Origin: Companilactobacillus formosensis
GTDB taxonomy: Bacteria > Bacillota > Bacilli > Lactobacillales > Lactobacillaceae
Length of the DNA stretch: 64,000 nucleotides
Assembly: GCF_005405305.1 (NCBI RefSeq)
Contig: NZ_BJDU01000003.1
Coordinates: 186,001-250,000 of the forward strand
Direction of reading: 5' to 3'
Made by a program: the position numbers and the translations under genes. Position 1 is the first letter of the stretch, and each line of letters opens with the position of its first letter. Shown one piece after another: positions 18,358 through 21,544 of the stretch. The notes below the pieces were generated by a model that worked only from the letters and a program-made list of their open reading frames with translations, had not been told where the DNA came from and made no database searches.

Positions 18358-18975
18358 TTAATTAAAGACTTGATTATAATACTCTAAATAAAACTCTTTA
18401 TCACTAACACTAGTTATTTTTGTAACACTAGTGTTTCTTGGTTCTGGTAAGCTCATTAGATCTTGAGGCTTTAGAACATCCAGAGCACTAGCTTTGATGG
18501 TGAAACCATGCGTTACACAGATAATTTTGTCGTTAGGATATTTATTAGTAGTTTCAATCATGAAATCATGTACACGATTGATCACATCATCAAAAGTTTC
18601 ACCATCTGGAGCGTATTTAACGTACATTGGTAAAACATCGTCCCAATAGTCATTATAAGCGTCTGGATGTCTTTTTCTCAAGTCAGCATTCTTTTGACCG
18701 TCCCACTGGCCATACGAAATTTCTAATAATCGCTTGTCAAAACTGACTGGTAACTGGGCACTTTGGTTCAAAATTTCAGTTGTTTGTTTGGTACGGTTTA
18801 AAGGACTAGAAATAATTCTATCTGCAAAGCTGATATCAAAGTGATCACGCAAAGTCTTAGCTTGTTCTTGACCATTATTATTGAGGTAAGTGATTTCTGA
18901 ATTAATTGTACCTTGTTTCATTTTTAAAACATTAGCTTTCGTTTGACCGTGACGAATAAAGTAAAATTGAGTCAT
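18358..18975 (-). CDS. Histidine phosphatase family protein (phosphoglycerate mutase-like)
   Basis: A 205-residue member of the dPGM-like branch of the histidine phosphatase superfamily. The phosphohistidine motif FIRHGQT is at residues 6-12 (His9), an acidic ISYGQWDG block lies near 86-93, and the second catalytic histidine is in ICVTHGF near residue 156. Too short for glycolytic GpmA and lacking its full signature, so a phosphatase is more likely than a mutase. It has AGGAGG before the ATG. It is divergent from serC-serA, and no serB is present here, so a phosphoserine phosphatase role is possible but unproven. Confidence 0.9.
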   Translation of the reverse strand: MTQFYFIRHGQTKANVLKMKQGTINSEITYLNNNGQEQAKTLRDHFDISFADRIISSPLNRTKQTTEILNQSAQLPVSFDKRLLEISYGQWDGQKNADLRKRHPDAYNDYWDDVLPMYVKYAPDGETFDDVINRVHDFMIETTNKYPNDKIICVTHGFTIKASALDVLKPQDLMSLPEPRNTSVTKITSVSDKEFYLEYYNQVFN

Positions 18976-19034: not shown

Positions 19035-19062
19035 TTGACAATTATTAAAAGAATGTTAAAGT
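19035..19062 (+). promoter_or_regulatory. Promoter of the serCA leader
   Basis: A perfect TTGACA (19035-19040) and TAAAGT (19057-19062) are 16 bases apart. Transcription would start near 19069, just before the leader-peptide ribosome binding site, leaving a leader of about 220 bases before serC. Confidence 0.6.
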
Positions 19063-19091
19063 TTATTTAAGTTAATTGGAGGTTATTTAAT

Positions 19092-19157
19092 ATGAAAAAT
19101 ATCAAAAATACATTAAACCTTACAGTCTCCTCCAAGTCTACACGTATATACATGTAG
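19092..19157 (+). CDS. Putative serine leader peptide of serCA
   Basis: A 21-codon reading frame, MKNIKNTLNLTVSSKSTRIYM when read in full, preceded by GGAGG (19078-19082) 9 bases upstream of the ATG. Three serine codons (TCC, TCC, TCT) occupy positions 13, 14 and 16. It lies between a promoter and an intrinsic terminator that stands before serC, the classic arrangement of a ribosome-mediated attenuator sensing charged seryl-tRNA. The coding of a functional peptide is not expected; its translation is the signal. Inferred from architecture, not from homology. Confidence 0.7.
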   Translation: MKNIKNTLNLTVSSKSTRIYM

Positions 19158-19262
19158 GCTTATTAACTAAACCTCATGTATGAAGTCAAATTCATAACTG
19201 TGGGGTTAATAAATTTAGTCAACTAGTTTCCTCACAGAGATTTTATCTGTGGGGATTTTTTT
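19116..19262 (+). promoter_or_regulatory. Candidate serine attenuator with alternative pairings
   Basis: Segment 1, AACCTTACAGT (19116-19126), just before the Ser codons, can pair over 11 bp (two G-U) with segment 2, ACTGTGGGGTT (19197-19207). Segment 2 can instead pair through CTGTGGGG (19198-19205) with segment 3, CCTCACAG (19230-19237), forming an antiterminator. Segment 3 pairs with segment 4 (19246-19254) in the terminator. Extra hairpins are at 19134-19142/19153-19161 and 19179-19184/19191-19196; AACCTCA (19170-19176) also complements segment 2. A ribosome stalled on Ser codons would mask segment 1 and favour antitermination. Confidence 0.7.
19230..19262 (+). terminator. Attenuator terminator upstream of serC
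   Basis: CCTCACAGA (19230-19238) pairs with TCTGTGGGG (19246-19254) across nine pairs with one T-G, loop GATTTTA, then seven T after one A. It stands between the leader peptide and serC, so it must be conditional for serCA to be expressed. Confidence 0.85.
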
Positions 19263-19289
19263 ATCTAATTTTTTAAAGGAGTGGAATTC

Positions 19290-20375
19290 ATGGTAGTTTA
19301 TAATTTTTCAGCTGGTCCAGCTGTTTTGCCAACTGAGGTCGTTAAAAAAGTGAAGGAAGATTTACCATCCTTTGATAATTCGGGAATGAGCGTAATGGAA
19401 ATATCTCACCGGTCGAATTTGTTTGATAAAGTCATCAATCAAGCACAACGAGATTTAAAAGAACTATTACAAGTGCCGGATAATTATCACGTACTCTTCT
19501 TCCAAGGAGGTTGTACTCTACAGTTTAGTGCAGCTCCCTTGAATCTAGCAACTGAATACAAAAAGATTGCCCTATTAGATAGTGGTCACTGGGCCGATCG
19601 GGCTAGAGATGAAGCTAGTCGTTTAGGTATAGGAGTAGACGTTTTAGATTCAACGAAGAATCTTCATTACACTCAATTGCCTGTGTTAAAAAACTTACCA
19701 CAGAATACTTACGATTATTTACATATTACGACTAATAATACGATTGAAGGAACGGCCTATAATCTTTTGCCAAAGACTGGGAATACTCCGCTAGTAGCCG
19801 ACTTGTCATCCAATTTCTTAGCACAAAATTACGATTTTTCTAAATTCGATTTGATGATGGTTGGAGCGCAAAAGAATGTTGGAATCGCTGGATTAACTAT
19901 CGTTGTAGTCAAAGATGATTTAATTGGTAAAGCTAAAAATCTTCCCAGCATGATCGATTATGAACTGTTTGCCAAAAAGAACTCGATGTTCAACACGCCA
20001 CCTGTTTTTGCCATTTATGTGGCTGGATTAGTTTTGAAATGGGTAAAAGAACAAGGTGGAGTTGAAGAAATGGATCGTCGCAATCGTAAGAAAGCTGATT
20101 TATTGTACGATTTCTTAGATGATTCTAAATTATTTACGGCACCAGTTATAAAAGAAGACCGTTCCTTAACAAATGTACCTTTTGTAACAGGTAAGCAAGA
20201 ATTAGATCAAGAATTGATTCAACAAGCTAGTGAAATCGGTTTGTTGAATATTAAAGGCCATCGTTCCGTCGGTGGAATGCGGGCTAGTTTGTACAACGCA
20301 ATGCCTTATAGCGGCGTTGAAAAGCTAGTCGACTTCTTAAATAAATTTGAAAAAGATTACTGGGGGAAACACTAA
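19290..20375 (+). CDS. serC: Phosphoserine aminotransferase SerC
   Basis: SerC makes 3-phosphoserine from 3-phosphohydroxypyruvate and glutamate with PLP. The frame opens with a GTG at 19281, but AAAGGAG at 19276-19282 places the start at the ATG 19290 (MVVYNFSAGPAVLP), giving 361 residues as expected. The PLP lysine is in GAQKNVGIAGLT near residue 196. SerC can also act in pyridoxine synthesis in some bacteria; the serA neighbour favours serine synthesis. serA starts at the last base of its stop codon. Confidence 0.97.
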   Translation: MVVYNFSAGPAVLPTEVVKKVKEDLPSFDNSGMSVMEISHRSNLFDKVINQAQRDLKELLQVPDNYHVLFFQGGCTLQFSAAPLNLATEYKKIALLDSGHWADRARDEASRLGIGVDVLDSTKNLHYTQLPVLKNLPQNTYDYLHITTNNTIEGTAYNLLPKTGNTPLVADLSSNFLAQNYDFSKFDLMMVGAQKNVGIAGLTIVVVKDDLIGKAKNLPSMIDYELFAKKNSMFNTPPVFAIYVAGLVLKWVKEQGGVEEMDRRNRKKADLLYDFLDDSKLFTAPVIKEDRSLTNVPFVTGKQELDQELIQQASEIGLLNIKGHRSVGGMRASLYNAMPYSGVEKLVDFLNKFEKDYWGKH

Positions 20376-21544
20376 TGTATGATGTAAAAACTTTTAATGC
20401 GATTGCCCAAAGCGGCTTAGATACTTTTAGAAATGATTTTGAAATTAACAAGACTGATAATCCAGATGCCTATTTGATTAGATCAGTTAACTTGTTGGAA
20501 GCTGATTTTCCACAAAGTTTAAAAACAATTGTCAGAGCTGGTGCTGGTGTTAACAATATTCCGTTAGATCGTGTGACAAAAAAGGGAATTGCAGTCTTTA
20601 ATACTCCTGGTAGTAATGCCAATGCTGTCAAAGAATTGATCGTTGCTTTAATGATTGCTACGAAGAGAAATCTCTTTGCAGCACACCAATATTCAGATGA
20701 ACATACAGAAGCCGATGTTTCTCAACGAACTGAAAAAGATAAGACTAAATTCAACGGAACCGAGCTATTTGGTAAAAAGGTTGCTGTAATTGGGTTAGGT
20801 CATGTTGGTTCTCTAGTTGCCAATGCTGCGTTAGGATTAGGGATGAAGGTAATTGGTTATGATCCTTATTTATCAGCTAATGCCGCCTGGAGAATCAATA
20901 ATAAAGTTAAACGAGTGGATACGATCAAGAAGGCGGTAAAAAATGCAGACTTTGTTACCGTTCACGTACCCAAAAATGAAGAAACAATCGGTTTGATCAG
21001 TACCCCAGAAATCAATGAAATGAAAGACGGAGTGGTTTTGTTTAATTATTCAAGAATAGGCATCGTCAATAACAAAGCTGCTGTTAAGGCTATTCGTAAC
21101 CAAAAAATCAATCATTACTGTACTGACTTTGGCGAACCGGTTATTGCTGAAAATTCGCAAATTACCATTACACCACACATCGGGGGTTCAACTTTAGAAG
21201 CCGAATCAAATGGAGCTATTCAAGGAGCAAATACCGTCATGGATTATTTGCAAAATGGTGATACGACTAATTGCGTCAATTTACCGAACATGCAAGTGGC
21301 GTTTGAAACAGCTTTTCGAATTACCGTAATTCACCAGAATGTTCCTAACATGGTGGGACAGATCAGTACGCAACTAGCCAATCGTCAAATCAATATTGAA
21401 AACATGGCCAATGCAGCTAAAGATAAAGTGGCTTATACGATTGTTGATGTTAATGATTTAAACCAAGATGATGCTGAAGATTTGATTCATCACTTGAATG
21501 CCATTTCTGAAGTTTATCGTGTTCGTTTGATCAAACACCAATAA
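20375..21544 (+). CDS. serA: D-3-phosphoglycerate dehydrogenase SerA with ACT domain
   Basis: SerA oxidises 3-phosphoglycerate, the first committed step of serine synthesis. The 389 residues contain an NAD-binding fold with GLGHVGSLVANAALG (about 135-149), the catalytic His in TPHIGGST (about 266-273), and a C-terminal ACT domain (about 315-389) that in relatives binds serine for feedback inhibition. The usual N-A-[SR]-RG region reads NYSRIGIVNN, with the Arg kept. The ATG overlaps the serC stop (TAATG). No plus-strand U-run terminator is seen after it. Confidence 0.95.
   Translation: MYDVKTFNAIAQSGLDTFRNDFEINKTDNPDAYLIRSVNLLEADFPQSLKTIVRAGAGVNNIPLDRVTKKGIAVFNTPGSNANAVKELIVALMIATKRNLFAAHQYSDEHTEADVSQRTEKDKTKFNGTELFGKKVAVIGLGHVGSLVANAALGLGMKVIGYDPYLSANAAWRINNKVKRVDTIKKAVKNADFVTVHVPKNEETIGLISTPEINEMKDGVVLFNYSRIGIVNNKAAVKAIRNQKINHYCTDFGEPVIAENSQITITPHIGGSTLEAESNGAIQGANTVMDYLQNGDTTNCVNLPNMQVAFETAFRITVIHQNVPNMVGQISTQLANRQINIENMANAAKDKVAYTIVDVNDLNQDDAEDLIHHLNAISEVYRVRLIKHQ

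Follow-up and report, generated by a model that had tools for sequence, protein, structure and literature searches.

The window, that is, the whole stretch of 64,000 nucleotides of Companilactobacillus formosensis DNA analysed here, carries the genes serC and serA preceded by a promoter, a short leader ORF and an intrinsic terminator (Table 1). The C-terminus of the serA product contains an ACT-like stretch, for which the ACT match lies below cut-off. The terminator stem (19229-19255, followed by a T7 tail) is located upstream of serC (19290) and represents the single site found by the terminator scan, compared with 0.1 expected from shuffled sequences. The leader folds with a z-score of -4.36, equally good folds being found in 0 of 200 shuffles, and its ORF is the only one of 48 short ORFs preceded by a Shine-Dalgarno sequence in the whole window to combine a serine run with a downstream terminator. 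The promoter, the GGAGG sequence, the 21-codon ORF with Ser codons TCC, TCC and TCT at positions 13, 14 and 16, and the terminator before serC had all been described in a first-pass annotation made from the letters alone, and are found exactly where it placed them. In genus relatives an identical -35 element is accompanied by TGTTAAAGT/TGTTACAGT at an unchanged position.

Table 1. Features of the serC-serA leader region; positions are those of the window.
Feature	Position	Strand	Basis and remarks
Promoter	19035-19062	+	-35 TTGACA, 19035-19040; extended -10 TAAAGT, 19057-19062, with TG upstream; found by scan
5' arm of outer stem P0 (GUUAAU)	19071-19076	+	pairs with 19162-19167
Shine-Dalgarno GGAGG of leader ORF	19078-19082	+	sequence; CCUCC in the Ser codons (19129-19133) is a possible partner
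Leader ORF, 21 codons, MKNIKNTLNLTVSSKSTRIYM-stop	19092-19157	+	ATG 19092, TAG 19155-19157; in-frame Ser run
Control codons TCC TCC AAG TCT (Ser 13, 14, 16)	19128-19139	+	Ser kept with synonymous changes
Segment 1, 5' arm of hairpin 1:2	19134-19145	+	comparison across the genus and between genera
Segment 2, holds the UAG stop (19155)	19150-19161	+	partners: segment 1 or (from 19148) segment 3; covariation and coevolution
3' arm of outer stem P0 (AUUAAC)	19162-19167	+	68-sequence alignment
Segment 3	19170-19184	+	2:3 joins 19172-19181 to 19148-19158; in 3:4 the whole segment is paired with segment 4
Segment 4	19191-19207	+	pairs with segment 3, or 19198-19205 with 19230-19237 (antiterminator)
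Segment 5, terminator 5' arm	19229-19238	+	terminator scan, coevolution
Segment 6, terminator 3' arm and U tract	19246-19262	+	terminator scan, coevolution
serC, phosphoserine aminotransferase	19290-20375	+	NF003764 and TIGR01364, both above cut-off
serA, phosphoglycerate dehydrogenase-like	20375-21544	+	best NCBIfam match TIGR01327, below cut-off; Pfam 2-Hacid_dh_C above cut-off

The divergently oriented neighbour (18358-18975, minus strand) encodes a protein of the histidine phosphatase superfamily (PF00300), whose NCBIfam matches to phosphoserine phosphatase PspA and phosphoserine phosphatase 1 are below cut-off. This gene adjoins leader-serC-serA at all 27 genus loci and, beyond the genus, in many lactobacilli that carry the leader, and is a candidate gene for the missing SerB activity.

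Within the genus, serC is present in 27 of 36 Companilactobacillus genomes, and in all 27 the leader is situated directly 5' of serC-serA, with very high nucleotide conservation; in two of these leaders an insertion separates the terminator from serC. A tandem repeat resembling AACGTTTGGTAACAAAACAA was noted in the terminator-serC interval of two Companilactobacillus species (L017 and L018). Scanning of seven Companilactobacillus genomes without serC with the RNA model gave no match. A covariance model, R1, built on the 5' portion of the leader and blind to reading frame, matched in 61 of 398 Lactobacillaceae genomes, and every inspected match outside the genus, save one false match (L096), lies immediately 5' of serC-serA and contains an ORF with a serine run. 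With another 91 serC upstream regions, which brought the total compared to 156, the leader was recognised in 112 of these Lactobacillaceae regions, belonging to about 15 genera; the carriers include Companilactobacillus, Lactiplantibacillus, Lentilactobacillus, Secundilactobacillus, Apilactobacillus and Lactobacillus equicursoris, and an additional leader is found in Ligilactobacillus equi. None was seen at the compared serC loci of Liquorilactobacillus, Loigolactobacillus and Paucilactobacillus, the serC upstream regions of Enterococcus, Listeria, Bacillus and Lactococcus yielded no convincing leader, and a search of 295 genomes of the order with the RNA model gave no match outside the Lactobacillaceae.

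Several loci at the edge of this distribution are of a different appearance. In genus g2 the ORFs with adjacent Ser codons, and in genus g16 those first chosen, run antisense to a tRNA gene and were excluded. Two g16 species (L200 and L202) possess a shorter serC leader, MTEFKVNLASSSTQSLV, in which ACUCGUGU pairs with ACAUGAGU and which looks like a four-segment version of the attenuator discussed below. In genus g6 (L205 and L206) a leader ORF with SSSPV (TCC TCC TCC CCY) precedes serC, but no clear six-segment relay accompanies it.

Comparison of the serC upstream regions across lactobacilli finds the short ORF, its Ser codons and the covarying stems conserved, in line with the first-pass annotation, which had read the leader as a candidate serine-sensing attenuator. 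The ORF usually comprises 16-27 codons (112 leaders). Its serine run takes forms such as SSSWS, SSKS, SSLS, SSSRS and SSSQS, while the rest of the peptide is variable, which supports the proposed specificity for serine. Between the ATG and the run the sequence varies freely and its length changes in steps of three, the frame being kept. Relatives with serCA that keep the terminator and have lost the ORF or its Ser codons were sought, and within the element-bearing lineages 0 of 112 leaders lack the Ser-run ORF; one Ser is replaced by Phe in two leaders (L130 and L098). The Ser codons interchange synonymously among TCC, TCT and TCA, and 364 of the 385 Ser codons in the runs are UCN, the class at which ribosomes slow down in Bacillus subtilis under serine starvation (PMC3862929). 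TCC alone accounts for 51% of them versus 7% of Ser codons in the genes of the window, which served as the background of codon usage. The residue within the run (K, L, W, R or Q) tracks the pairing of helix 1:2, AAG occurring with ...GGCUU and UGG with ...GGCC. Tryptophan is found inside the run of 67 of 108 leaders, in most genera other than Companilactobacillus, and such leaders might also feel Trp limitation; helix 1:2 can alternatively account for the UGG codon.

The six segments listed in Table 1 form a relay, in which the pairings 1:2, 3:4 and 5:6 (the terminator) are exclusive of 2:3 and 4:5 (the antiterminator). In the genus alignment, columns 80, 85 and 131 show a triple covariation from U/A/U to G/C/G in eight sequences, both alternative partners of column 85 being compensated simultaneously. 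Between genera whole arms are swapped, as in the case of UACAUGUAGG:CCUCAUGUA in Companilactobacillus versus GAAGGCC:GGCCUUC in genus g5. A permutation test covering 13 genera gave better pairing within than between genera for each of the helices 1:2, 2:3, 3:4, 4:5 and 5:6 (p=0.0002, the floor of the test), whereas the control pairings 1:3, 1:4, 2:5 and 2:6 showed no coevolution; the value obtained for 3:6 (p=0.003) is expected by transitivity. In the 68-sequence alignment, which was itself fitted to the model, helix 3:4 covaries and six of six P0 pairs change on both sides. Since segment 3 is poorly aligned between genera, column-wise counts for 2:3 on this alignment were set aside and replaced by the energy-based coevolution test.

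Three mutually exclusive pairings had been drawn in the first-pass annotation, and all of them exist. Its antiterminator and terminator correspond to 4:5 and 5:6, which coevolve across the 13 genera, but its remaining pairing, of 19116-19126 with 19197-19207, is not conserved, and the conserved helices 1:2 and 2:3, both using 19148-19161, were absent from it. The circuit proposed there, in which 19116-19126 would sequester segment 4 directly until a stalled ribosome released it, draws on a pairing of -15.2 kcal/mol in this genome that is also strong in close relatives; however, in about half of the genus the same pairing reaches no more than -1.4 to -6.5 kcal/mol, and it is weak in other genera as well, while 2:3 and 4:5 persist, so that this version of the switch is scarcely credible. 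The general logic of a stalled ribosome is supported by the comparison, with the difference that the element masked would be segment 1 (19134-19145), whose covering would act via 2:3, the conserved switch, to free segment 4.

A metabolite riboswitch, responding to serine or a compound of the pathway and containing the ORF incidentally, would be in keeping with the very high nucleotide conservation within the genus and with a closed fold, a three-way junction formed with P0 and a GGAGG:CCUCC helix between the Shine-Dalgarno sequence and the Ser codons. Nevertheless, the stretch from the ATG to the serine run is freely variable though its frame is kept, the Ser codons change synonymously, and helix 1:2 is largely replaced in genera g5 and g37. 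The conserved core consists of Ser codons and mutually exclusive stems, without the constant loop expected of an aptamer, and this explanation is considered very improbable.

An attenuator that senses tRNA charging without a leader peptide, namely a T-box binding tRNA-Ser, also deserves attention, as T-boxes are the usual device in Firmicutes, 25 T-box matches were obtained in this very genome, and a Ser T-box 5' of serA controls that gene in Paenibacillus polymyxa, where serine synthesis is governed, as proposed for the leader here, by tRNA-Ser charging and a terminator (PMC8002221). That system nonetheless differs in binding the tRNA directly and in having no leader peptide, and its motifs are absent from the serC leader. 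The search that yielded the 25 matches gave none at serCA, none reaches the Rfam cut-off in the window, and the leader possesses neither a Stem I with specifier loop nor a T-box sequence or consensus, in agreement with the first-pass annotation; T-box identity is thereby refuted, leaving it practically no probability. Leader-less lactobacilli that were tested likewise showed no T-box 5' of serC.

The positions of codons and segments fit an attenuator read by a ribosome. There is an overlap between segment 1 and the last Ser codon, segment 1 beginning 4-8 nt before the end of that codon in most leaders; 78 of 108 leaders have their stop codon within or next to segment 2, 26 just after it and 4 before it. 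In an equilibrium folding calculation with an assumed ribosome footprint, masking by a ribosome on a Ser codon gave 2:3 in 106 of 108 leaders and 4:5 likewise in 106 of 108. When the ribosome was placed at the stop codon, segment 2 was hidden, 2:3 became impossible and 3:4 prevailed in most genera (weakly in g23), computed 4:5 being lowered yet present, with at least five pairs in 63 of 108 leaders. As long as segment 6 has not emerged, the equilibrium for a leader free of ribosomes already favours 2:3 and 4:5 in genera g13, g20 and g23; tight basal termination there would need kinetic folding of 1:2, and the computed preference points to kinetic control.

Every defining feature of an attenuator that can be tested by sequence is present in the leader: a short ORF that has a ribosome binding site and is flanked by a promoter 5' and a terminator 3'; codons for the pathway's amino acid, conserved as a run within an otherwise variable peptide; control codons overlapping segment 1 and a stop where the ribosome covers segment 2; and mutually exclusive terminator and antiterminator helices with covariation support. 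The serC-serA leader is hence very probably a ribosome-mediated transcription attenuator sensing charged tRNA-Ser. From the sequence comparison we infer that the ORF is translated, that ribosomes stall in it, and that serine is the signal, with control in the following direction. RNA polymerase would transcribe the leader while a ribosome reads the 21-codon ORF. With ample seryl-tRNA, the ribosome would reach and cover the UAG in segment 2, so that 3:4 pairs, the 5:6 terminator forms and transcription ends. When seryl-tRNA is scarce, the ribosome would halt at the Ser codons and cover segment 1; 2:3 would then pair, freeing segment 4 for the 4:5 antiterminator, and serCA would be transcribed. 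Without any ribosome, 1:2, 3:4 and 5:6 would form and lead to termination.

The outer stem P0 and the GGAGG:CCUCC helix suggest, in addition, that the leader without a ribosome takes up a closed form in which the start site of its ORF is hidden. The GGAGG:CCUCC pairing is kept in 27 of 27 genus members, but because it is nearly invariant and its coevolution weak (p=0.035), the closed form is offered as a hypothesis. A bolder version of it is rather doubtful: the Ser codons (CCUCC) would sequester the GGAGG of their own leader within the P0-closed three-way junction, leaving the ribosome-free leader shut for both translation and read-through, and a ribosome halted at Ser would expose the start site it had used to the following ribosome, making the switch self-priming; a slip of frame might even change the amino-acid specificity. 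Read one base out of frame, the C-U-C-C repeat gives Leu codons (CUC CUC), which may be compared with the Leu-rich leader peptides before a PTS_EIIC_2 gene. These peptides (MTNFNTNIINNALLLNLLLI and relatives; L326 1525-1587, L327-L346 and L348) were observed in several Lactobacillaceae genera 5' of a PTS_EIIC_2 membrane protein, with hairpins and a terminator 3' of them and a relay seemingly the same as that of the serC leader. This arrangement suggests that the transporter-like family responds to leucine.

The Rfam scan of the leader returned no family at cut-off. This includes the serC RNA motif RF00517, listed as predicted (PMC3766115) and likewise named for serC, for which cmscan gave no match. 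The trpB motif RF04312, similarly a Firmicute element of hairpin plus terminator (PMC11109978), scored 27.7 bits over 19145-19266, where the cut-off is 59, and was unseen in the leaders of five other genera, and is taken to be a chance likeness. Leader-peptide attenuators had been regarded as rare in Firmicutes, where T-boxes dominate, and leader peptides have been described there as newly found (PMC2965389). The specificities listed for attenuators are His, Leu, Thr, Trp, Ile/Val and Phe (PMC3766115). A full-text search of open-licence papers found no serine leader-peptide attenuator, though earlier work, or work behind a subscription, may have described one. The attenuator of the ilv-leu operon in Staphylococcus aureus, with its Leu-rich peptide, is likewise ribosome-mediated, belongs to a Firmicute and governs a biosynthetic operon through a terminator and antiterminator, but employs Leu codons and another operon (PMC5794164).

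The enterobacterial his operon leader (RF00514), like the one described here, encodes a peptide with a run of the amino acid of its pathway; it differs in sensing histidine and in its enterobacterial host, as opposed to serine and the Lactobacillaceae, and the serC leader has no sequence match to the Rfam His_leader family. The his attenuator consists of six segments, A to F, with AB, CD and EF set against BC and DE, which is the same relay topology as in the serC leader. The serine leader would therefore be a new specificity of a known kind of switch, added in about 15 genera of lactobacilli, several of them of food use. As a regulator of serine synthesis it would lend itself to easy testing, and it would provide a natural test of which serine isoacceptor, that for UCN or that for AGY codons, is discharged first.
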